DNA from: Bryobacterales bacterium
Lineage (GTDB): Bacteria > Acidobacteriota > Terriglobia > Bryobacterales > Bryobacteraceae
NCBI GenBank assembly: GCA_026954325.1
Contig: JAIXKK010000069.1
Span: 1 to 34,213 of the forward strand
DNA length: 34,213 bases
Reading direction: 5' to 3'
Position numbers and translations under genes: made by a program. Numbering within the stretch: the stretch's first letter is position 1; each line of letters opens with the position of its first letter. Under the pieces are notes generated by a model. That model was not told the origin of the DNA and did no database searches. It worked only from the letters and a program-made list of their open reading frames with translations. Shown here piece after piece: positions 18,312-32,168 of the stretch.

Positions 18312-18707
18312 GTGACTGTCGAGGAACTGCTGCAAGAGGGCCGTGTGATCGCCGTGGTAGGCCTCTCGCCAAGCCGCTTTCGCCCAAGCTACGGCGTCTC
18401 TGAGTACATGCAGGCGCAAGGGTTCCGCATCATTCCAGTGAATCCGAACGAGACCGAAATTCTGGGCGAGCGATGCTACGCCTCGCTCGAGGATGTACGG
18501 GAGAAGGTGGACATTGTGAACATCTTCCGGCGCCCGGAGTTTGTTCCGCCGCTGGTGGACTCCGCCATCCGCATGGGAGCGAAATGCGTCTGGATGCAGG
18601 AAGGAGTGGCGCATGAAGGAGCCGCGGAACAGGCAAGGGCAGCGGGTCTGCTGGTGGTGATGGACCGGTGCATTTTGAAGGAACACCGGCGGCTGGCCAT
18701 GAGATAG
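18312..18707 (+). CDS. CoA-binding domain protein (YccU type)
   Basis: A GTG-started protein of 131 residues forms a single Rossmann-like CoA-binding domain. It begins GRVIAVVGLSPSRFRPSYGVSEYMQAQGFRIIPVNPNE and continues with CYASLEDVREKVDIVNIFRRPEFVPPLVDSAI and VWMQEGVAHEGAAEQARAAGL. This fits the small stand-alone YccU-like family related to the succinyl-CoA synthetase alpha subunit N-terminal domain. The biological role is unknown. It follows the pseudouridine synthase by 7 bp and is the last gene of the scpA operon. Confidence 0.88.
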   Translation: MTVEELLQEGRVIAVVGLSPSRFRPSYGVSEYMQAQGFRIIPVNPNETEILGERCYASLEDVREKVDIVNIFRRPEFVPPLVDSAIRMGAKCVWMQEGVAHEGAAEQARAAGLLVVMDRCILKEHRRLAMR

Positions 18708-19043
18708 ATTTCCTCGCGCGGCCAATTGATATTGCCTGGCGATATTCACCCAAAGCCTGGCCGGCAAGGCATTATCCGAATGAAATGCCTGGAGCCGCGC
18801 GTGAGGTTTTCGTGAAATTTCCTCACGACCGGCGCAACGATTCCTAATTGAAATTCACTAGAATATTGACCCTGGTTGTGGGCCGAAATTGCTCGCAGCC
18901 TGTAGATCAAACCGTTCCGCGGGCCGCGGGCGCCGGCCTCTTACCAGAGGCAGCGTGTCCGCGGCGATCAACATTTGGTCTGTCCGGCGTACCTACGGAC
19001 GGACCCACATTCAGGGCGTAACTCTCAACCAAGGAGGCTACCC
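18708..19043. promoter_or_regulatory. 336-bp gene-free leader region of the candidate RiPP operon
   Basis: No gene is seen here. It separates the scpA operon from the 19044 operon and, being far longer than the gaps around it, probably holds a terminator and the operon promoter. There is an AT-richer patch near 18840-18870. A small inverted repeat, GTCCG (18982-18986) with CGGAC (18996-19000), lies about 45 bp before the first start codon. I could not assign a convincing -35/-10 pair. Confidence 0.35.
19031..19037 (+). promoter_or_regulatory. Strong ribosome-binding site of the Cys-rich peptide gene
   Basis: AAGGAGG lies 6 bases before the ATG at 19044. It is the best Shine-Dalgarno sequence noticed in the window and fixes the start against the in-frame upstream start at 18975. 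Such a site suggests high expression, as expected for a RiPP precursor relative to its enzymes. Confidence 0.75.
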
Positions 19044-19520
19044 ATGCCCTTTCGCGTGAAAGACATCCTCATCGATGTACTTCAACCCCAACCTTGTCCG
19101 CAGCACACGATTATCCCGTGCCACTTCCAATGTACGTTCGTGCACAGCATCTGCCACTTCGGCTGCACCATTCAGCCGACGTGTCATTTCTATCCGACCT
19201 GGATCACATGCGGATTCCATTGCTCGCATCTGATCTCGTATTGCCCCCAGGGCTCCATCGTCTGCCCCGGCGGTTCCATTCAGTGCCCGGGTGGTTCCAT
19301 TGCCTGCGGCGGTTCCCTGATCGATCCCGGCCCCCTGACGCCGGAGGCGATTCGGGAGCGGCTGAAGGCGCAACTGGCGGCGGCGCAGGCTGCCGAGGAA
19401 ACGGCGGCCGAGGCGATGAAACCGCAGACCCTCGAGCAGGTGGATTTGCTCGAAGGGAAGTTGAAGGAAGCACTGGCTGACTTGGGCCGGCGCCGGGAAG
19501 AACTGAAGAAGAAAGGGTAG
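19044..19520 (+). CDS. Cys/Ser/Thr-rich repeat peptide, candidate lanthipeptide-type RiPP precursor
   Basis: The 158-residue product has three zones. Residues 1-17 (MPFRVKDILIDVLQPQP) form a short possible leader. Residues 18-93 hold 12 Cys (18, 26, 30, 37, 41, 47, 56, 60, 67, 74, 81, 88) and 13 Ser/Thr, arranged as four CHFxC[T/S]-like units (26-61) and then tandem CPxGSIx heptads (67-93). In the heptads Ser71, Ser78 and Ser85 each lie three residues before a Cys, the S-x-x-C spacing of a lanthionine ring. Residues 97-158 are Cys-free, Ala/Glu/Leu/Lys-rich and probably helical, ending REELKKKG. No signal peptide is visible. The next two genes encode a lyase-like protein and a kinase-LanC protein, which is why a precursor role is proposed. 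A metal-binding protein is the main alternative. Confidence 0.65.
   Translation: MPFRVKDILIDVLQPQPCPQHTIIPCHFQCTFVHSICHFGCTIQPTCHFYPTWITCGFHCSHLISYCPQGSIVCPGGSIQCPGGSIACGGSLIDPGPLTPEAIRERLKAQLAAAQAAEETAAEAMKPQTLEQVDLLEGKLKEALADLGRRREELKKKG
19119..19226 (+). repeat. CHFxC(T/S) repeat block within the precursor
   Basis: Four degenerate units at protein level: CHFQCT (26-31), CHFGCT (37-42), CHFYPT (47-52) and CGFHCS (56-61), spaced 9-11 residues apart. The third lacks the second Cys. Each unit pairs aromatic/His residues with Cys and a following Thr or Ser. Confidence 0.7.
19242..19322 (+). repeat. Tandem 21-bp repeats encoding CPxGSIx heptads
   Basis: Three 21-bp units (19242-19262, 19263-19283, 19284-19304) encode CPQGSIV, CPGGSIQ and CPGGSIA. 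An 18-bp fourth unit (19305-19322) encodes CGGSLI, having lost the Pro codon. The head-to-tail array suggests growth by internal duplication. Confidence 0.85.
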
Positions 19521-19546
19521 TTCCAAACCGGAAGGGGGGCCGAGCG

Positions 19547-20737
19547 ATGCCGGCGACTATGGTCAATGCACTTGTGACGAGCCAGGACACACAGATCCGC
19601 AACATCCTCGGAGCCCGCTTCCGGGCAAATCCCGAATATCAACTGATCCCGTTTGAGCGCCTCCCGGCCGGGCAGCGGGAACAATGGAAAGAACTTGCGC
19701 GCGACCCGTCTTTTTTCGGGTTGCTGCTGCCTCGCGAAGGTTCAGCCTGCCGCATGAAATCCGCCTGCCGGGACACAGCGCTTCTCTTCTTTACCATGCA
19801 GTCAGCGGGTGTCTTGCCAGCCTTCGCGGTCCACGCGGGTAACGGCGAAGCGAACCGGACGATTGCCCAACTCGTGCTGGATGGAATCCTGGAGATAGAA
19901 GCGAACGGAGAGTTCTTCACCGGTCCCGCCGCGGCATCACGCATTTTTCCGGAAACGAAGGCGGAGGCTTCCAGACACCCGCTTGCCGGTCTTTCCGCGG
20001 ATGCAGTCCGCTATGGCGCGTCCCTCGATTCACTGGACGCCGGCCAGATCGCCGCGCGGCTGTATTTCTATAACCGCATCCCGCTGACTGCCCGATGGCG
20101 AACCCTGTATGCCACGAAGGAAGCGGTGCTCGCCCATCTCGGCGCGAAGGACAACCCGGTTCTGCGGCGGGATTGGATGGAATTGCCCGCGGATCCGGAA
20201 AACAATGCATGGATTTCCTGGCGCCGCCGGTCTCAATGGAACGTCCCCGTGGACGGGCAGACTTATAAACTGTATTTGAGTCCACGGCCGGATCATCTAA
20301 CTGAAGCATTTCGTGCATTTGTAAGCGCCATTTCCGGAGCCGGCTGCCTGAATTTCAAAGCCGGCAGTGACGCAGGAGCGCTGCTGCGGCCCGACAAACT
20401 GGTGGCCTATTTCCATTCCAAAGAGGACCTCGATGATGCAGCGGCCCGGCTGGAATGCGGACTTGCGGGCTGCCCGGCTCAGGGCGTCCCATTTACGGCA
20501 CCCTCCGGAGATTCGCTCCTCGTTTCCTGGGGCATCGATCCTCCGGCGGAGGAATGGGAGCGGCGGGAGAGCTGGCGTCTTTGGGTCACCAAGAGGCTGG
20601 CGGTTCATATCAAAGCAGGCAGCACGGCGCGTCCCGCCGTAGATCCCGTGAAGTTTGCCCTGGAGAGGATGCGGCTGGAGGCAGTGGACACATCCATCTG
20701 GACGCCCGCGCCGGGCATCTGGAAACCGGGCGAGTAA
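19547..20737 (+). CDS. Putative stand-alone lyase-like RiPP enzyme (phosphothreonine-lyase/HopA1-like core)
   Basis: This 396-residue protein starts 26 bp after the precursor gene, behind a G-rich ribosome-binding site. The region around 60-125 (CRDTALLFFTMQ... TIAQLVLDGILEIEANGEFF) has the helix-turn-helix look of a PqqD-like RiPP recognition element. The region 238-300 contains YKLYLSP (240-246), NFKAG (269-273) and RPDKLVAYF (281-289). Their order and spacing resemble the lyase domain of class III/IV lanthipeptide synthetases and of OspF/HopA1-type effectors, where a K-x-H motif starts the catalytic strand. Here the His position is Tyr243. The proposed role, eliminating phosphate from phospho-Ser/Thr of the precursor, depends on this weak resemblance plus the neighbouring kinase-cyclase gene. 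The similarity was judged by eye; the family is otherwise unrecognised. Confidence 0.55.
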   Translation: MPATMVNALVTSQDTQIRNILGARFRANPEYQLIPFERLPAGQREQWKELARDPSFFGLLLPREGSACRMKSACRDTALLFFTMQSAGVLPAFAVHAGNGEANRTIAQLVLDGILEIEANGEFFTGPAAASRIFPETKAEASRHPLAGLSADAVRYGASLDSLDAGQIAARLYFYNRIPLTARWRTLYATKEAVLAHLGAKDNPVLRRDWMELPADPENNAWISWRRRSQWNVPVDGQTYKLYLSPRPDHLTEAFRAFVSAISGAGCLNFKAGSDAGALLRPDKLVAYFHSKEDLDDAAARLECGLAGCPAQGVPFTAPSGDSLLVSWGIDPPAEEWERRESWRLWVTKRLAVHIKAGSTARPAVDPVKFALERMRLEAVDTSIWTPAPGIWKPGE

Positions 20738-20761
20738 GTGAACCACGGAAAGGAGAAAGTC

Positions 20762-23098
20762 ATGGAAGGGAATCTGATATTGCCGCCGGACATCCGGTTT
20801 ATCCCGGCTATGGAGCTAAGCGAGGAAATTCGCCGAAAGATCGGCGCCGGGGACGGCGACCTCACCGTGACTCGTCCTCACTCCCGCGCTCCTTCGAAAG
20901 TCGTTGACCCCGAGACCTATGCGCTCCTCAAGGAATTCGAGAAGCCGAATACGATTGTTCAGGCGGTCCTACGGTTCAGCAAACAACGGAAACTGCGCGC
21001 GGAGCAGGTTCTGGACGATGCATTTCCCCTGCTGCGGAGCTTCTTCGAGAGCAAGTTGCTGGTCGATCCGGACTCCGTGGAAGCGCAGCGGGTTGAAGCC
21101 GCTCATTCGGTTGGGCAGCAGGTGGCCGGCGTGTTCGTCGAAGAGGTGCTCGCGGTCATCTCCGACACGGAACTCTATCGCGGGCGGACCAGCGACGGGG
21201 AAGCAGTCTTGAAGATCGGGCGCACCGCGGACCCGTCTATTCGCTATCTGCTGAAACGCGAAGCCGGGATCCTCGAACACGGACAGGCCACGGGCGTGCT
21301 TCCGGCATTGTTGGATCGCGGCGAACTCGATGGGAAAGCGTTTCTCGTCATGGAGTATTGCCCCGGCATCGATGCGGCATCCGCGGCGGCGGAAGCGAGA
21401 GGACAAGGCGCCGCGACGGCATGGGACCTGTGCGGGCGGATCCTCGAAGCCTACAGCAGGCTGCATGGAGCGAACATCGTGCATGGCGACGTGCATCCGC
21501 GCAACATACAGGTTGACGGTGACATCGTCCGGTTGCTGGACTTCGGTGTTTCCGTCGTCGAGGACGAATCGGGTGAGAAGGGACATGCGCCGCGGGCGGG
21601 AATCGGATATTTCTTCGAGCCCGAGTATGCGCGGGCAGTGCTGGCGAATGCGGCGCCTCCCAAGGCAACGAAGGCGAGCGATCAGTACGCCCTGGGTGCG
21701 CTCTGCTATCTGCTGATCTCCGGAGAACACTATCTCGATTTTCCAGGGGAGAAGCGGGAGATGATGCGCGCGATCGCGGAGGATCCGCCGGTTCCGTTCG
21801 CAATGAGAGGCGCAAGCGTGCCGGATGCGGTGGAACGCGCCGTGTTCCGGGCTTTGGAGAAAAATCCCGCGCATCGCTTCGCCTCCACCGGCGAATTCGC
21901 GGCGGCGTTCCGAGGCGCGATCCAGGGAAGCGCGAAGATGCCGCGGGGCCAGGCTCCCCAGGCATTGATAGCGGCAAAACTCGACGAGGTTCTGCGCGAA
22001 CTCGACCAGCCGCGGACAACGTTCGAATACCGCGGACCGCGGAGCCCTTCCGTGTCCGTAACGTATGGCGCCGCCGGGATCGCTTACATGCTTTACCGGT
22101 TGGCCTGCGTGCGGGGTGGCGCCGGACTGCTGTCACTTGCCGACCAGTGGGCCATCACGGCCGCCGCGCATGCCGCGGATGCGGACGCGTTCTATCACCC
22201 GGATGTGAAGATCAGTCCGGAGACAGTGGGCCGCGCTTCGCCTTATCACACCGCGAGCGGTGTCCACGCCGTGCAAGCCCTGATCGCGGCGGCAATGGAT
22301 GACCATCTTTCCTTAGGTGTTTCCATCGAAGCCTATCTTGCCGCCTCCAGCGAGCCTTGCGACAAGCTGGATCTCACCCTTGGGCACTTCAGTACCGTGA
22401 TCGGATTGACGATGCTGATGGATGTGGTCCCGGATGGCGAGGGCAAGCATCTGCTGTCGAAAGAGGGCAGCCGGCGCTTTGCCGAAGCCTGGGCGCAAGT
22501 GGAAAGAATGGGGCCTATCGCGACATGCAGGCAGGAGCCCTACCTTGGCATCGCGCACGGGTGGGCCGGATTCCTGTACACCGCGCTGCGATGGGCAAGC
22601 GCGAAGGGTTGCCGCCCGCCGGAAGACGTCGAGAGCCGCCTGCACGAACTGGCTGCCTTGGGCGAACCGCATCGCAAAGGAATGCGTTGGCCGTTCCACC
22701 TGGAAGCGCGGGGAGCCGCGCGGCATATGGGCGGCTGGTGCAATGGAACCGCGGGCTTCCTGCAACTGTGGACGCTGGCGCATCGAGTCTACCGCCAGGA
22801 ATGGCTGCTGCGGTTGGCGGAGCAATCAGCGGAAGAGTGCGCCGCGGCGCCCGGCGGTGTTGCAAGCCTGTGCTGCGGGGCGGCCGGCCAAGGCTATGCG
22901 CTGCTGGCGCTTCACAATCACACGGGCGAGCAGCGGTGGCTGGATGCGGCGCGCGGGAAAGCGATCGAGGGCGTGCAGGCATCTTCGCGGAGCCGCGGCG
23001 AAGAACTGCCGTTCAGCCTGTACAAAGGCGACGTGGGACTCGCGTTGCTGTGCGCGGAGATCGAGGCGCCTTCCCTGGCGGCGATGCCGTTCTTCTGA
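20762..23098 (+). CDS. Lanthionine-synthetase-like protein: RRE-like segment, protein kinase and LanC cyclase
   Basis: AGGAG 6-7 bases upstream sets the ATG at 20762 (778 aa) over an in-frame GTG at 20738. Residues about 45-102 (VVDPETYALLKEFEKPNTIVQAVL... LLRSFFESKLLV) resemble PqqD-type recognition domains. A protein kinase follows (about 130-385) with K151, E167, the catalytic loop HGDVHPRN (D243, N248) and DFG (260-262). From about 430 is an alpha-toroid LanC domain with repeated small-residue motifs, LGIAHGWAG (595-603), GWCNG (C660) and SLCCG (C704, C705). C660, C704 and C705 are the expected zinc ligands; CCG in place of CHG is the pattern of ProcM-like cyclases. The lyase domain found at the N-terminus of class III/IV synthetases is absent and may be supplied by the preceding gene. 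No transporter or protease follows. Confidence 0.85.
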   Translation: MEGNLILPPDIRFIPAMELSEEIRRKIGAGDGDLTVTRPHSRAPSKVVDPETYALLKEFEKPNTIVQAVLRFSKQRKLRAEQVLDDAFPLLRSFFESKLLVDPDSVEAQRVEAAHSVGQQVAGVFVEEVLAVISDTELYRGRTSDGEAVLKIGRTADPSIRYLLKREAGILEHGQATGVLPALLDRGELDGKAFLVMEYCPGIDAASAAAEARGQGAATAWDLCGRILEAYSRLHGANIVHGDVHPRNIQVDGDIVRLLDFGVSVVEDESGEKGHAPRAGIGYFFEPEYARAVLANAAPPKATKASDQYALGALCYLLISGEHYLDFPGEKREMMRAIAEDPPVPFAMRGASVPDAVERAVFRALEKNPAHRFASTGEFAAAFRGAIQGSAKMPRGQAPQALIAAKLDEVLRELDQPRTTFEYRGPRSPSVSVTYGAAGIAYMLYRLACVRGGAGLLSLADQWAITAAAHAADADAFYHPDVKISPETVGRASPYHTASGVHAVQALIAAAMDDHLSLGVSIEAYLAASSEPCDKLDLTLGHFSTVIGLTMLMDVVPDGEGKHLLSKEGSRRFAEAWAQVERMGPIATCRQEPYLGIAHGWAGFLYTALRWASAKGCRPPEDVESRLHELAALGEPHRKGMRWPFHLEARGAARHMGGWCNGTAGFLQLWTLAHRVYRQEWLLRLAEQSAEECAAAPGGVASLCCGAAGQGYALLALHNHTGEQRWLDAARGKAIEGVQASSRSRGEELPFSLYKGDVGLALLCAEIEAPSLAAMPFF

Positions 23099-25475: not shown

Positions 25476-27823
25476 TCAGAACTGAAGGCGCAAGGCGAAT
25501 TCCGTCTGCCGGCTGAGATTCGCTTGAGACGAAATCCGTCCGAAGCTGGCATTTCCCACTGTCGTGTTTGGCCCGCCGAAGACCGGGTGGTTGAACAGGT
25601 TGTAGGAAGAGGCGCGGAACTCCAGTTTCACCTTCTCCACAATCTGGAATGCCTTGGTCAGAGTCAGGTTGATGTTGTTCATGCCGGGCGTGCGAACGGT
25701 GTGTAGTCTGGGCGCCAAATTCCCGATGGCGAAATCAGCCGGCCTCGCAAACGCCGCGGTGTTGAAGTAGCGTCCCAGCCGCTCGCTGTGGCTGCCCGAA
25801 ACGCCAGATGTGGGGTCGCCCACCACATCCGGACCTCGGCGCGCCGCGCCGGGAACTCCCGTGCCGCCTTGCACGCCAAACGCGGTAGGGAAGCCGCCCT
25901 GGAAAGTTTGGAACGTGGATAGCTGCCACTGTCCCACCAGCAGATCCAAGGCTCGCGAAGCATTGTTGAGATAGCGCCTGTTGCGGCCTACAGGCATATC
26001 CCACGCGCCGCCAATGGTCAGCCTCTGCGGCACATCGAAGTCGCTCACCGCGCGCTCCACACGGCGATTGTAGGAATCCTGCGGCGAATTCAGATCGCTG
26101 ATGTTCTTTGAAATCGTGTAGGAAATCAGCCCGGTCAGCCCTTGGGAGAGCCGCTTCTCCAGCTTCACCTGCATGGAGTGATACACGCTGTTTCCGTAGG
26201 CCGGGGTAACGCGGCTCACTGATGTGAATTGCGGATAAGGCCGCAGCAATTGCTGTCGTTGGATGGTGCTCCCGCCGAGCGGCCCGGTGAGGATTCCGAA
26301 GAAGGGATTCTCCACGGTCTGGGCGAGTTGCGCACCCATGGACAGGTACTGTGTAGGGAGCTGATTCAATGTTTCATCAGGAGCAATCAGGTTAATGCCT
26401 CGCGTTCCGACATAGCCCACTTCGAGCAGCGCCTGTCCTGGAATCTCGCGCTGGATATTGAACTGCCAATTGTGGAACTTCGGGTAAATGTCGGCCGGCT
26501 CGACGAAGGAAACGGCTTGTCCCACCAGCGTTGCAAGACCCTGGGAGTTTCCGATGGGCGGCAGAAGGCCGTTGGGCAGCGGGTTGCTCAACCGGTCCTT
26601 CACCGTGATTCCTCCATCGGTGGAACTTACCCACGGCGTATCGTTGCTGTAGCCCGTTGCCAGCACCGAACCAACCACCGGGATATAGCTCAGCGCATAA
26701 CCGCCGCGCAGCACGGTCTTCTTGTTGAGGCTGAACGCGAATCCGATGCGTGGAGCAAAGTTGTTCCGGTCCGGATTGTACAAACCGCGCGAAGCGCCGT
26801 TCACTCCGGCATAGAGCAAGCCACCTCGAAGATTGAGGCCCGGCGCCTTTACCGGCGAGACGGCGCCGTAGTCAAATCCGCGCGTGGTGCGGTCATATCG
26901 TTCGGTGCGCGGCGATTCGTATTCCCAGCGCAGTCCCAGATTCAACGTCAGCCGCGGCGTCACACGGAAGTCGTCCTGGAAGTAAAGCGCGTAGTAGACA
27001 TTCTGAATCGACAGCCCGGTGTTAAAGGGCACATTGCCGCTGCCGAAACCTACAAGGAAGGAGGCAAGGCCGAATCCACCCGAGGGTAGAGCCGCATTTG
27101 GGCCTCCTGTTTGATTCGGTCCGAAGGAGAACGTTCCGGACGGGCTCAGATTGCGGAAGTAGTTGCCGCGCAGCAGCCGTGTTTCCCCGCCGAACTTAAA
27201 GAGATGCTTGCTGCGCTGCATGGTCATGCTCGGCTGCAGGGACCACGTGTCGCCGGGATCGAAAATATACGGGCTCCCCGCCAGCCCTTCGAAATCCGAC
27301 ACGGAGATAGTGGGGAAAGCGAAGCTCTGCACAAGTTTTGTGTAGGCCGTGGGAAAGCCCAGCGATGGGAGATCGAAGCCATCGGACCATGGGCGGTTGT
27401 TCTCAATGCCGCGCGCATAGCCTAGCCGGACATCCAGTGTTGTGGAAGGGCTCAGGATGAGTGTATCGCCGATGGCCACGCCGAAATTCGGCCGCTTCAC
27501 ATTGTTCCGCCCGCCTGTGGCGATGCCTTCGAATTGATATGGAAAGACAAGCCGCCCCTCGCCTTTGTTCATGCGCACAAATGCCTGATGACTTGGGCTG
27601 AACTGATGGTCAATCTTGATGACGGTGGCGTCGTAATCGCGAGGCCACTTGAACGATTGGCTGAAGTTCTGCACGTACGGGCGGCGCGCGTCCGGGCCCA
27701 CCTGGTTGGCCTCCGGCCAGTATTTCATGATGTTCCGCGCTACCGCATCCTGCGCCTGCTGAGGCACGATGTTGCCGGGGAAGGGCTGGCGAGTTGGAGT
27801 GCCGTTGATTGTCTTTACAGATA
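25476..27823 (-). pseudogene. TonB-dependent receptor, C-terminal part (separated by insertion sequences)
   Basis: This is the beta-barrel part of a large acidobacterial TonB receptor. Read upstream of its first in-frame start, the frame continues through SVKTINGTPTRQPFPGNIVPQQ up to the end of the IS1380 element at 27824. It ends FALRLQF, an outer-membrane-type C-terminus. Typical family segments are present (KIDHQFSPSHQAFVRMN, GYVGTRGINL, FLVGFGSGN, PRLTLNLGLRWEYESPRTE). It lacks a signal peptide, the regulatory-like domain and the plug, all of which lie at 31113-32168. Joined to that part through the 5-bp duplication AGATA, the frame is restored (IYDPLSVKTING). On its own the fragment would not be exported. 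Confidence 0.9.
27819..27823. repeat. Target-site duplication AGATA, left copy (IS1380 element)
   Basis: AGATA immediately precedes the left inverted repeat at 27824 and is repeated at 31113-31117 directly after the right inverted repeat. Five base pairs is a usual duplication length for IS1380 elements. Confidence 0.85.
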
Positions 27824-27843: not shown

Positions 27844-29360
27844 CACTCCTGTGCAAATTAGCTTTCATCCGCCATGCTGAGGTGTATCCGAGGGGTGGCG
27901 GGGACGGCGGGGCACCCGGTCTGGTAGGGTTGACTCAGGTTTCGCCAAGAAACTGAAACCCACTCAACGAGGAGTCCCCCGCCATGATTCGAGTATCCAG
28001 CATTTTCAGCCAGTTGTTGCAATTTTTCCCGCGTCTGGAGTTTGAGGCGTTAGTCCGCAAGCATGCCGCCGAGCGCCACGCCCGCGGTTTCACCTGCTGG
28101 CAGCAGTTCGTAGCCATGCTGTTTTGTCAACTGGCCTACGCGCAGAGCCTGCGTGAGATCTGCGGCGGGTTGGCGGCTTTGGAGGGCAAACTGCGTCATC
28201 TCGGGGTCATGGATTGCCCCAAGACCACCACGCTGTCTTACGCCAACGCGCATCGGCCCTGGCAGTTGTATCGGGCCCTGTTTGAGCAAACCCTGGCCCG
28301 CTGCCAGGCCGAAGCAGCGGCGCGCACCAAACGCCGGTTCCGGTTCAAACACAAACTCCTGAGCCTGGATTCCAGCATGGTGGAGTTGTGCGCGGAGGTC
28401 TTTGACTGGGCTCAGTACAAGCGCACCAAGGGGGCACTCAAACTCCATCTGGTGCTCGATCACGACGGGTTCCTGCCTTGCTACGCGGTAATCACCGAGG
28501 GCAAGACAGCCGACGTCACCGTCGCACGGACGATCGACTTCGCACCGGGCACGCTGGTAGTGTTTGACCGCGGCTATAGCGACTACGACTGGTGGCTGAA
28601 ACTGACGCGATCGGATGTGCACTTCGTCACCCGGCTCAAAGACAGCGCCCGCTATGGCATTGTAGAGTGCCGGCCGGTGGTGGAGGGCACCAACATCATA
28701 CGCGACGAAGTGATTCTGCTTACCAGCCAACAGGAGATCGGACCCGAAGCGCGGCTGCGGCGCATTGAGTTGTGGGTGGAGGAGAAGGAGGAGACGATGG
28801 TCTTGCTCACCAACAACCTGAAACTGGCGGCCAGTACCATCGCGCGAATTTACCGCGACCGATGGCAGGTGGAACTTTTCTTCAAGGCGCTGAAGCAGGG
28901 TCTGAAGGTCAAGACCTTCGTCGGCACCAGTGAAAACGCGGTGCAGATTCAAATCTGGACCGCCCTGATCGCCATCCTGGTTCTGAAGTACCTGCAATTG
29001 AAGAGTACCTTCGGCTGGAGTCTGTCCAATATGGTCGCCCTGCTGCGGCAACAACTGTTCGTCTATCGGGATCTGTGGACGTGGCTGAACGACCCCTACC
29101 AGGCCCCGCCGCCCCTGGTGGCGGCCGAACAGTTGGCATTGGGGCTGTAATTTGGAAAGCACATCGGCAGGAATCCAGGAAAAGGCGGGCAATGCAGGGC
29201 AGAATGAAGTTCAACTTGGATAGCAAGGGGCGGCAGAACCGATAACACCAACCCAGAATGGCAGACCCAACCAGGAATCCGTCAGGATGCCCAGGCGGAG
29301 CTTATCTCCAAGCCTTGCAACACCGGCGTCTCAGCGATGAGGCTAATTTGCACAGCAGTG
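27844..29360 (+). mobile_element. IS4-family insertion sequence
   Basis: The element is 1517 bp. Its terminal inverted repeats are CACTCCTGTGCAAATTAGC (27844-27862) and, reversed, CACTGCTGTGCAAATTAGC (29342-29360), differing at one base. It is flanked by the 9-bp direct repeat CACGCAGAT at 27835-27843 and 29361-29369. It carries one transposase gene and about 190 bp of non-coding sequence after it. The near-perfect ends and exact duplication suggest a recent insertion. Its target lies only about 11 bp inside one end of the IS1380 element. Confidence 0.93.
27984..29150 (+). CDS. IS4-family transposase (DUF4372 + DDE domain)
   Basis: The 388-residue protein has an N-terminal DUF4372-like region (FSQLLQFFPRLEFEALVRKH... 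FTCWQQFVAMLFCQLAYAQSLREI) and an RNase-H-like DDE domain. The acidic residues appear in LLSLDSSMVEL, LVVFDRGYSDYDWW and the IS4 signature Y(2)R(3)E(6)K, seen exactly as YRDRWQVELFFKALK. Length is normal and the frame intact. GAGGAG stands 9 bases before the ATG. The product cuts and pastes the element by hydrolysis and hairpin chemistry, as known for the family. Confidence 0.95.
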   Translation: MIRVSSIFSQLLQFFPRLEFEALVRKHAAERHARGFTCWQQFVAMLFCQLAYAQSLREICGGLAALEGKLRHLGVMDCPKTTTLSYANAHRPWQLYRALFEQTLARCQAEAAARTKRRFRFKHKLLSLDSSMVELCAEVFDWAQYKRTKGALKLHLVLDHDGFLPCYAVITEGKTADVTVARTIDFAPGTLVVFDRGYSDYDWWLKLTRSDVHFVTRLKDSARYGIVECRPVVEGTNIIRDEVILLTSQQEIGPEARLRRIELWVEEKEETMVLLTNNLKLAASTIARIYRDRWQVELFFKALKQGLKVKTFVGTSENAVQIQIWTALIAILVLKYLQLKSTFGWSLSNMVALLRQQLFVYRDLWTWLNDPYQAPPPLVAAEQLALGL

Positions 29361-29515: not shown

Positions 29516-30973
29516 TCAGTTGCGAATTGCGGTGGCCAATACCGGCGACAAAGCAGTGCCAGTGAAGGTGATGGACCGCACGCGATCCATCAGCCGCCGG
29601 AAGATGCCCTGCTCGGCATAGTGGTCGCTGTAGCTGACGCCGGCACGACCGGCGTGACGCCAGATCTTGGCGGCCAGGAATAGGAATCGTAGGCGTGTCG
29701 TGGCCAGCGTGGTGTGCGGAAGTTCGCTGACGGTGATGTTCTCTTCACGATGGAAGAGCATTAGCCAGCAGTTCAGGTTGTAAGCCAGCATGGCGATCTG
29801 AAAGTGGACACAGTTCATCGCCCAGCGCCTCGACGGATGCGCAGCCAGTCCCGCGTCATTGTTCGCTTCTTTGATCAGGTTCTCGGACGTGGCCCGCTGC
29901 CGGTAGAAGCCGACCAGCGCATCGATCGGCGCATCCATGTTCGTGACGAATACGCGGTAGCTGTACTCGGGCGTGTCGAACAACTGGTATTGCTCGGGCT
30001 GGCCTGGTTCGGCGGCCTTGGGTGTCTTGACGTAGCGCAGGGCGACGAACCGATAGGCTTTCCCCCATCCTTCCGGCTGATAGCGGAACTCGCATTGCCC
30101 GTCGGCGTCGGTGCGTGGCGATCCGGTCCAGCGCGCCGCTTTCAGTTCATCGAGCAACCGAGGCGTCTTGCGGACCGATATCACGAAGAGACACCCCTTG
30201 CCCTCATAGGCCTGCACCGCCGCCCAGCAATAAAAGCCCGAGTCGGCTCGCGCGTACACCGTCTGGACGCCCGGTGGCAGCCCGGCGAACACACCGCTCA
30301 GATGCTGCGCGATCTGCTTGCCCGTCGGCCGGTCGCCCTTGAGCAACTCCCCGCCAATGTATTCTCGTGTTTCGGCCAGGAACGTCAGAATCGGCTGGTA
30401 GCTCTTCTTGCCGCGGTTCTTGGGGTTGTAGCCTTTGCGCGCTCCCATCTGGTGGCCGAACACGGTATGCACTGTCGTGTCGGTATCCAGGGTGACTGCG
30501 GTTAATTGCACGTGGGCCGCTTCCCACACTCGATTGCGCATCGCCTGCTGCACTTTCAGCAACTGTCCTGCGACCGTCAAATGCAGCGATGCCAGAAAGC
30601 GCCAGAAGGTGCATTGCAGCGGCAGCCGCAGCACCTTCAGAATCCCCGTCAGCATCGGCTCGCGCTCCAGGAAGCGCAGATGATTGAGCCGCGAGAAGCC
30701 GACGTAGCAAGCCAGGACCATACCCAACACGAACTGGTATGGCTGCATCGACCGTGTCAGACGCTTCACGGTCACTGTCTCTTCCACCAGTTCCTGGAAC
30801 TTCAGGCGTTCGAGCATGGTGGCAACCGGGAGAAGGCCGCCGTAGGCAGTCAAGTTCTTACTGTCGAAGTCATAAGGCGTGGAAGCCCCGATTTCATTAG
30901 GCTCCCGATTACTGGTCTGGACCCCTTGTTTTGCGGGCTTTTTCGCGATATCCTCTGGAACGTGTTTCACCAT
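29516..30973 (-). CDS. IS1380-family transposase
   Basis: With the start at MVKHVPEDIAKK, preceded by AGGAG at good spacing, the protein has 485 residues, usual for IS1380. DDE-type residues are visible in TAVTLDTDTTVHTVFG (first Asp), YARADSGFYC (second Asp) and RATSENLIKEANND (Glu), and the family segment GARKGYNPKNRGKKSYQPIL is intact. An in-frame start at 31009 is less likely because it lacks a ribosome-binding site. The gene is undisrupted, although the IS4 insertion has moved one end of its element about 1.5 kb away. Confidence 0.95.
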   Translation of the reverse strand: MVKHVPEDIAKKPAKQGVQTSNREPNEIGASTPYDFDSKNLTAYGGLLPVATMLERLKFQELVEETVTVKRLTRSMQPYQFVLGMVLACYVGFSRLNHLRFLEREPMLTGILKVLRLPLQCTFWRFLASLHLTVAGQLLKVQQAMRNRVWEAAHVQLTAVTLDTDTTVHTVFGHQMGARKGYNPKNRGKKSYQPILTFLAETREYIGGELLKGDRPTGKQIAQHLSGVFAGLPPGVQTVYARADSGFYCWAAVQAYEGKGCLFVISVRKTPRLLDELKAARWTGSPRTDADGQCEFRYQPEGWGKAYRFVALRYVKTPKAAEPGQPEQYQLFDTPEYSYRVFVTNMDAPIDALVGFYRQRATSENLIKEANNDAGLAAHPSRRWAMNCVHFQIAMLAYNLNCWLMLFHREENITVSELPHTTLATTRLRFLFLAAKIWRHAGRAGVSYSDHYAEQGIFRRLMDRVRSITFTGTALSPVLATAIRN

Positions 30974-31112
30974 CTGGGTGACTCCTGGAAAATGGAATTG
31001 GCGAAGCACACACTTCGCGGTTCTTCTGTTTTAACGCAGATTTTCCAGGGTCTCCAGGTGGTCGGTCCGCTCAACCGCTCAGCGCAACCTCACATTCTGT
31101 GCATAGGTCAGG

Positions 31113-32168
31113 AGATAAGGGATCGTAGATGGCGCCGGAGAATTCGGAGAAATCGCCGCTGCGCATCCTGGCGGTAGGCACGTTGAGAACAGGGCTGATG
31201 CCGTTGCCTTCGCGGGAACCTTCGAAATTGAAAAAGAAGAACGTTCGATTGCGCCCGTCGTAGAATTTCCCGAGCCATACCGGACCGCCGACGCTGAACC
31301 CGTACGTGTTCGAACCGTAGCGCGCCAGACGTCTGCCCGCCGTATTGTTGAAGAAGAGGTTTGAATCGAGCGCCGCGTTGCGCAGGTATTCATAGACGGA
31401 GCCATGCAGGTTGTTCGTGCCGCTGCGAATGACGATGTTCATGATGCTGCCGCCCGAGCGGCCATATTCCGCGGGCAGGGTTCCGGTCTGGAGCTTGAAT
31501 TCCGCTACTGCGTCCACTTGCGGCACCCACTGCGAGATGTTGACTCCGCGATTGACGTTGACGGTGTTCGCCACTCCGTCCACCGACACGTCGCCGGAGG
31601 CGACAGGCGATCCGTTAGACGAGTAGGAAACGTTGGTGATCGTGTCGTTGGGCCGCGTGTCTTCCCCGTAACGGTTGTTCACCACTCCCGTCGCCAGGGT
31701 AAACATGAACAGACTGCTGTGTCCTTTCAGCGGCAGCGTATCCACCACTTTGCGGTTCAGGACCGATCCGAGCGAACTCGATTCGGATTGCACCGTTGCC
31801 ACTTCTCCCGCTACAGTCACGGTTTCCGTAGCCTGGCCAAGCGACAACTCGATGTCGAGTCTCGAGTTGTCGCCCAGGCTGAGAATGATGTCTTCGCGCT
31901 GGTCGGTCTTGAACCCCGAAGCCTTCGTGGTTAGGACATACTTTCCCGGAGGCAGGAATTGAAAGATGTAATGCCCCGCGGAATCGGCGGCCGCCTCCCG
32001 TTCCACGCCCGTATCGGTATTTTTCAGGGTCAACGAAGCTCCCACAATCGCGGCGCTCGTCGGGTCCGTGATGGTTCCTTGCAAGGTGGCGCGAAACTCT
32101 TGAGCCATGGAGTGGGAGGCCAACAGTGCAACAACAGCAATAAGAGATCCCATATGCATGCGGGACAT
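31113..32168 (-). pseudogene. TonB-dependent receptor, N-terminal part (interrupted by insertion sequences)
   Basis: The fragment encodes 352 residues of receptor: a signal peptide (MGSLIAVVALLASHSMAQ), a carboxypeptidase-regulatory-like domain (ATLQGTITDPTSAAIVGASLTLKNTDTGVEREA) and a plug (VVDTLPLKGHSSLFMFTLATGV... AEFKLQTGTLPAEYGRSGGSIMNIVIRSGTN). At 31113 it meets the IS1380 end; translation then reads about 14 foreign residues and stops at 31071. The barrel lies at 25476-27818. Splicing the parts through AGATA gives one open frame of 1132 residues ending FALRLQF. The truncated product would be exported but could not form a barrel. The downstream DUF4384 and oxidoreductase genes may lose transcription from this gene's promoter. 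Confidence 0.92.

Follow-up and report, generated by a model that had tools for sequence, protein, structure and literature searches.

Sequence analysis of the window, a 34,213-nt stretch of a Bryobacterales genome (contig JAIXKK010000069.1 of assembly GCA_026954325.1), found three consecutive open reading frames (ORFs) on the plus strand. These very likely form an operon for a multiply thioether-bridged lanthipeptide, with a two-protein synthetase split in a manner unlike classes I–VI: a HopA1/LanY-type lyase, probably with its own recognition element (RRE) of ribosomally synthesized and post-translationally modified peptides (RiPPs), and a protein joining an RRE-like domain, a kinase and a LanC-type cyclase with a Cys-Cys-Cys (CCC) site. 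The precursor gene (19044–19520) encodes 158 aa with 12 Cys, and its ATG is preceded by AAGGAGG at 19031–19037. After a gap of 26 nt follows the lyase gene (19547–20737; 396 aa, predicted phospho-Ser/Thr lyase), and then the RRE-kinase-LanC gene (20738–23098), for which the ORF tool gave the start GTG 20738, the more likely start being ATG 20762, preceded by AAGGAG at 20750–20755. A purine-rich ribosome-binding stretch lies ahead of each of the three genes. The original prediction, a lanthipeptide-type operon of three same-strand genes headed by a 12-Cys peptide, is supported in its reading, ORFs and counts, with the lyase on one chain and the RRE-kinase-cyclase on another; its gap of 26 nt stands, and its second gap of 24 nt holds for ATG 20762 and not for the ORF tool's GTG.

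To place the window among its relatives, we used 64 other loci obtained by a two-pattern scan of a species-genome collection, a lower bound, in which loci were chosen by their lyase. Pfam and NCBIfam gave no match for the window's lyase protein; PF17914 was touched by 9 of 50 lyase relatives at E up to 1, the window's own lyase not being among them, and identification by sequence only was abandoned after a profile run against PDB sequences returned a single chance-level GGDEF match (E 0.26). Because these searches gave nothing usable, the identity was settled by a fold search with the predicted structure (one AlphaFold model per protein part), in which the nearest folds were HopA1 and the class V lyase LxmY. 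The predicted active-site residues K241, K271, R281 and Y288 (20267–20410) are each kept in 64/64 other loci, and K271, R281 and Y288 show the same spacing (+10, +7) as the active-site residues K219, R229 and Y236 of class V CaoY, whereas Arg187 of CaoY is replaced by K241 in the window lyase (PMC9486802; this and the papers below are cited from those parts of their text available to us). The fold and the residue conservation bear out the "lyase-like" label first given to this protein, and the lack of a lyase fold, which had been named as a result that would speak against the reading, was not observed. LxmY aligns with the window lyase only from residue 136 onward, and the preceding N-terminal domain (residues 17–136; 19595–19954) is modelled as what is probably the second RRE of the system.

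The third protein begins with an RRE-like domain (residues 11–117 of the 786-aa reading; 20768–21088). Pfam searches of 59 kinase-protein N-termini touched PqqD in 2 (best E 0.016), ThcOx in 4 (best 0.02) and DUF7782 in 8 (best E 0.0025); since these matches were too weak alone, the domain was modelled by itself and found to be a PqqD-like RRE by fold, a feature of RRE-dependent RiPP systems. The fold supports the "RRE-like" label first given to this N-terminus; the initial count of a single RRE is not supported, the lyase probably carrying another. Next comes a Ser/Thr protein kinase domain (residues 141–410; 21158–21967) with K159, D251, N256 and D268, of which D251 and N256 occur in 62/62 other rows and K159 and D268 in 61/62, with one gap each. 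The LanC-like cyclase domain (22055–23095) matched LANC_like (PF05147) with 78.6 bits (E 4.3e-22) over positions 6–347 of 350, and it and the kinase, both of which had been predicted, scored above their Pfam cut-offs. The cyclase residues H607, C668, C712 and C713 (HCCC) were found in the window and in 53/53 readable loci, a count that leaves out four cut loci (L009, L010, L014, L046), L019, where LanC continues in a second frame, the four loci without LanC (L057, L058, L060, L065), and L013 and L036, which lie outside the alignment.

Kinase-protein sequence was found downstream of the lyase in 64/64 other loci, which places the gene arrangement beyond chance. The kinase frame starts less than 600 nt from the lyase frame end in 61/64; in L006 it lies about 0.95 kb further, with an extra stretch of about that length ahead of it; the contigs of L013 and L036 stop once the N-terminal domain of the kinase protein has begun. 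LanC was found by sequence in 54/64 loci and by Pfam in L062, the remainder comprising five cut loci (L010, L013, L014, L036, L046) and the four without it. As the 64 loci had been selected through the lyase, the reverse test was run in 396 same-phylum genomes (own included), of which 6 matched the lyase profile and 8 the RRE profile; the six genomes common to both hold seven adjacent enzyme pairs. In each genome only the best few first-look candidates were scored, 4 in the lyase search and at most 10 in the RRE search, and the RRE-profile matches of G070 and G108 (E 2–3e-5) were weak and not counted, the L087 reading looking FkbH/HAD-type by eye. In the own genome (7.0 Mb, 228 contigs), the lyase, the precursor (E up to 1) and the LANC_like domain each occur once, at the operon.

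According to the record titles, from which taxonomy was taken and many of which are those of metagenome-assembled genomes (MAGs), the 64 loci span over ten phyla, and so the system is not confined to acidobacteria. The titles name Acidobacteria, Armatimonadetes, Thermoflexales, Dictyobacter, Fuerstiella, Proteobacteria, Trichodesmium, Gemmatimonadetes, members of Bacteroidota and Actinobacteria, Eremiobacterota, Verrucomicrobia, Elusimicrobia and one "Nitrososphaerales archaeon"; we take Thermoflexales and Dictyobacter to be Chloroflexi, Fuerstiella Planctomycetes and Trichodesmium Cyanobacteria. Named isolates with a locus include Dyadobacter, Amaricoccus, Dictyobacter and Bailinhaonella, and the lyase of L002 is 94% identical to that of the window. 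The system is patchy, since 4/12 genomes of the own genus have it, and spread by horizontal transfer is inferred.

The precursor consists of a short N-terminal leader-like motif (F-R-V-K-D-I-L-I), a Cys/Ser/Thr-rich core and a conserved, helical-looking C-terminal follower. Among 8 close and 28 distant rows, identity to the window is, respectively, 98% and 44% for the leader-like segment (residues 1–14; 19044–19085), the putative RRE ligand; 65% and 27% for the core (residues 15–93; 19086–19322), the putative site of dehydration and ring formation; and 79% and 30% for the follower (residues 94–158; 19323–19517). All 12 Cys of the window precursor (residues 18–88, counted on the translation) lie inside the core, which contains CxxxS and CPGGSI repeats. 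A follower pattern of the PQTLEQVDLLEGKLKEAL type recurs in loci of several phyla, and the follower might act as a carrier or serve in folding or anchoring; its segment PQTxEQVxxLExKLxEAL, which looks helical by eye, recurs across phyla. Two long precursors, one of 270 aa with 28 Cys and one of 282 aa with 26 Cys, stand in tandem before a single lyase in the Armatimonadetes MAG L006 (2366–4058). In the Chitinophagales loci L049 (7327–7950) and L047 (544–885), the cores are near-perfect tandem repeats of the TCKRTNDDDI and TSCTHVT type, very unlike the acidobacterial cores although the leader motif is similar.

A related precursor was found at 55/64 other loci, that is, 55/62 testable loci (L002 and L045 being without upstream DNA). 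After three rounds, a precursor profile based on 41 sequences chosen by pattern and by eye had found relatives upstream of the lyase in 52/65 loci, window's copy included, a reach that is not an independent figure because most of these loci went into its training. The precursors of L053, L054 and L065 fell outside the distance filter only because the lyase frame extends further upstream, and that of L028 lies behind the kinase gene. Its specificity is better: among 11,926 ORFs, the sole further match was L011 (E 0.001, in one round). No related precursor is counted for L011, L014, L017, L051, L052, L056 and L062, of which at least the five other than L051 and L056 show, by eye, a small ORF with a leader-like start. 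A database search with the precursor alignment returned 38 proteins. When whole genomes were scanned, a match was obtained in 33/38 (35 matches in all), and the 33 best matches all sit at the enzyme locus, 32 of them less than 4 kb from the lyase frame and that of L028 4.04 kb behind it; the remaining two (L006, L020) are also at the enzyme locus by hand arithmetic. Peptide homologues lying mostly away from LanC-like genes, which had been named as a result that would speak against the operon, were thus not found, with the reservation that the profile misses some divergent precursors. Orphan precursors of the prochlorosin kind were likewise considered and dismissed, as none lay away from the locus in the own genome or in the genomes of 38/64 loci; the profile found nothing in 5/38 genomes, and since a divergent precursor sits at the locus in four of these (L022, L044, L049, L061), divergent orphans might escape it too.

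In 49 family cores, those left of 52 precursors (the window's own among them) from loci that are not without LanC once three with fewer than 4 Cys had been set aside, 550/554 Cys have a Ser/Thr 2–6 residues away, compared with a fraction of 0.877 ± 0.015 in shuffles, 0/500 of which reached the observed value. Counted from Cys, and inflated by related rows, Ser/Thr were found most often at +4 (262), followed by −2 (179), +1 (175) and +5 (147), with only 26 at +2; five-residue Cys-x-x-x-Ser/Thr rings are consequently a guess, +4 being the commonest offset and −2 the next. The cores of the window's own group are rich in His as well as in Cys, with CHFGC repeats, as might be expected if the peptide were a metal-binding or disulfide-bonded protein and the kinase, lyase and LanC proteins had another target. 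This is most improbable, however, as His makes up 4% of residues over the 49 cores compared with 19% for Ser+Thr, the precursor matches in the scanned genomes sit at the enzyme locus, and the leader motif is shared even by precursors that are poor in Cys.

Those Cys-poor precursors belong to L057, L058, L060 and L065 (Sphingomonas, two Nitrosomonas and Neoroseomonas), in which the kinase protein keeps its RRE-like part and LanC is replaced by ~260–280 residues with no LanC match (Pfam run on L057, L058 and L065). They share a PDCGGTS motif and have 1, 1, 1 and 3 Cys, the 3 including an upstream extension (1 Cys after the likely start), while for the other 52 precursors the median is 8 and the minimum 2 (Mann-Whitney P 0.001, the four LanC-less loci being related); in L040 and L025, which possess LanC, the precursor has only 2–3 Cys. 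In L058 and L060 the lyase frame is shorter, about 258 codons, and is without the N-terminal domain. The LanC-less version may make dehydro-peptides only. LanCL proteins reportedly add glutathione, and LANCL1 and LANCL2 are the LanC-type solved chains among the matches listed for the kinase-cyclase protein (60 of 319); together with the existence of LanC-less loci, this would suit a pathway in which the peptide is dehydrated and the LanC domain adds another thiol such as glutathione or forms no ring. We consider this improbable, because Cys abounds in the precursors, with Ser/Thr placed at ring distance, and all but disappears where there is no LanC.

Lanthipeptide classes are defined by the build of their dehydration and cyclisation enzymes. 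The operon bears the lanthipeptide hallmark, in that genes of the dehydratase and cyclase types adjoin one for a precursor whose Cys have Ser/Thr at ring distance, and each of the six classes in print (as defined in PMC12328550, PMC10676316 and PMC12291118) is at variance with it in at least one defining feature tested. For class I, no LanB match was found in Pfam and NCBIfam among the three operon proteins, the rest of the genome not having been searched for LanB. The class II LanM model matches the LanC part only (443–753), with 50 bits compared with a cut-off of 304. Class III LanKC and class IV LanL resemble the third protein in having a Ser/Thr kinase and then a LanC-like domain in one chain, with phospho-lyase chemistry predicted here too; nevertheless, the window chain has an RRE-like domain in the place of the lyase domain, the lyase has a gene of its own in the window as in the 64 other loci, and the cyclase ligands are CCC instead of the Cys-Cys-His of class IV, none being defined in class III (PMC11251773). 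This ligand set and the HopA1/LxmY-like lyase fold do not support the initial description of the operon as class IV functions split over two chains. Class VI LanKCb is also kinase-based, yet is one synthetase with truncated lyase and cyclase, limited to streptococci and short substrates (PMC10676316, PMC12328550), whereas the window has a separate full-length lyase and a near-complete LANC_like match; as "class VI" is already in print for LanKCb, we rejected that name for this family.

Class V (LanK + LanY; CaoK/CaoY, LxmK/LxmY) also has a stand-alone lyase of the HopA1/LanY fold. A gene fusion in an otherwise ordinary class V (or class IV) system, its RREs and CCC cyclase being trivial variation, would account for a lyase nearest to LxmY and HopA1, for the 144-bit match of the NCBIfam class IV LanL model to the kinase-cyclase, and for a kinase whose score against APH (PF01636), the family to which class V kinases belong, is 25.0 bits (E 1.8e-5), just above the cut-off of 23.2, APH even being the best kinase match in the LanC-less L065. 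We nevertheless regard this as unlikely. The LanL match falls short of the cut-off of 650 bits and spans 168–743 of the kinase protein, leaving the lyase part of the model uncovered; the window kinase is closer to PF00069 (50.3 bits, E 2.9e-13) than to APH, and its nearest solved kinases, among the matches listed, are StkP and PknE/PknB. Further, kinase and LanC, separate chains in class V, are fused here in one ORF together with the RRE-like domain, the lyase has an added N-terminal domain, and the precursor has its own leader motif and long follower. Class II–V enzymes are described as without an identifiable RRE (PMC10604976), as are those of classes II–IV in PMC7470986.

With regard to the cyclase site, CCC cyclases are the "CCG" type, the type IIa LanM of photosynthetic bacteria (PMC11251773), which share the triad with the window and differ from it in that the window uses a kinase and a separate lyase instead of a LanM dehydratase, with no scattered precursors found in the genomes scanned. 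The same paper, which searched with a VenL-based lyase model, lists 8 peptide predictions that lie nearest to the combination of a lyase-type dehydratase and a CCC cyclase ("L-CCC"). Some of these may belong to the window family, although the available parts give no account of a separate lyase with an RRE or of an RRE-kinase-LanC chain. No such enzyme split appears in those of PMC7268733, which mined four classes, and nothing nearer was seen in those of PMC11520301, PMC13289728 and PMC11002830. Searches of the open PubMed Central literature, subscription papers and bioRxiv not being covered, returned no description of this chain layout, of the pair of RREs, of the precursor family or of the spread of the system, in agreement with the original view that the arrangement is not known as a described class. 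As the predicted bond and each domain are already known, we do not call it a new kind of system; rather, the family mixes a class V-type lyase fold, a class III/IV-like kinase-LanC chain and the metal site of type IIa (CCC) cyclases, and places RREs on kinase-type enzymes where PMC10604976 and PMC7470986, in the parts available, hold none identifiable or expected. Being small (three genes) and present in named isolates, the family is directly testable.

From gene order, folds, conserved residues and co-occurrence, all read from sequence or models, the following chemical steps are inferred for the two-protein synthetase. The RREs would likely bind the leader F-x-(V/I)-K-D-(L/I)-(M/L)-(I/V), and the kinase would then phosphorylate core Ser/Thr. 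The lyase is predicted to eliminate the phosphate via Lys271/Tyr288, with Lys241 and Arg281, giving dehydro residues, to which the LanC domain, with zinc presumably on Cys668, Cys712 and Cys713, would add Cys thiols to form (methyl)lanthionine rings. On a broader reading, to which we give about an even chance, the family would be a further synthetase class, horizontally spread over more than ten phyla, in which related RREs on the lyase and the kinase-cyclase read one short leader, and whose products would be long, multi-ring, follower-bearing peptides kept in the cell, many with Cys-first (Cys-x-x-x-Ser/Thr) rings, one branch having lost its cyclase and cysteines together and making dehydro-peptides only.

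When 516 neighbouring ORFs within ~6 kb were clustered, no recurrent exporter or protease family was seen, as judged by eye without family search and within the limit of short contigs, in line with the initial remark that the operon has no visible transporter or protease. The clusters comprised the precursor (29 loci), kinase-like (12) and regulator-like (8) proteins and one 7-locus cluster that is an antisense reading of the operon; the others cover at most 5 loci each, none transporter-like by eye. Given this and the conservation of the C-terminal segment, the product probably stays in the cell together with its follower or is dealt with by unlinked machinery, and such long, hypervariable precursors without a linked exporter raise the question of what role a non-exported lanthipeptide would play.

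Upstream of the operon lies a gene for a CoA-binding protein, which ends at 18707, and downstream, on the opposite strand, are genes for an oxidoreductase, a DUF4384 protein and an outer-membrane barrel. The last, an OMP_b-brl_4 gene on the minus strand, is in two pieces, C-terminal at 25476–27767 and N-terminal at 31071–32168, between which two transposase genes (27984–29150 and 29516–31009) are located.

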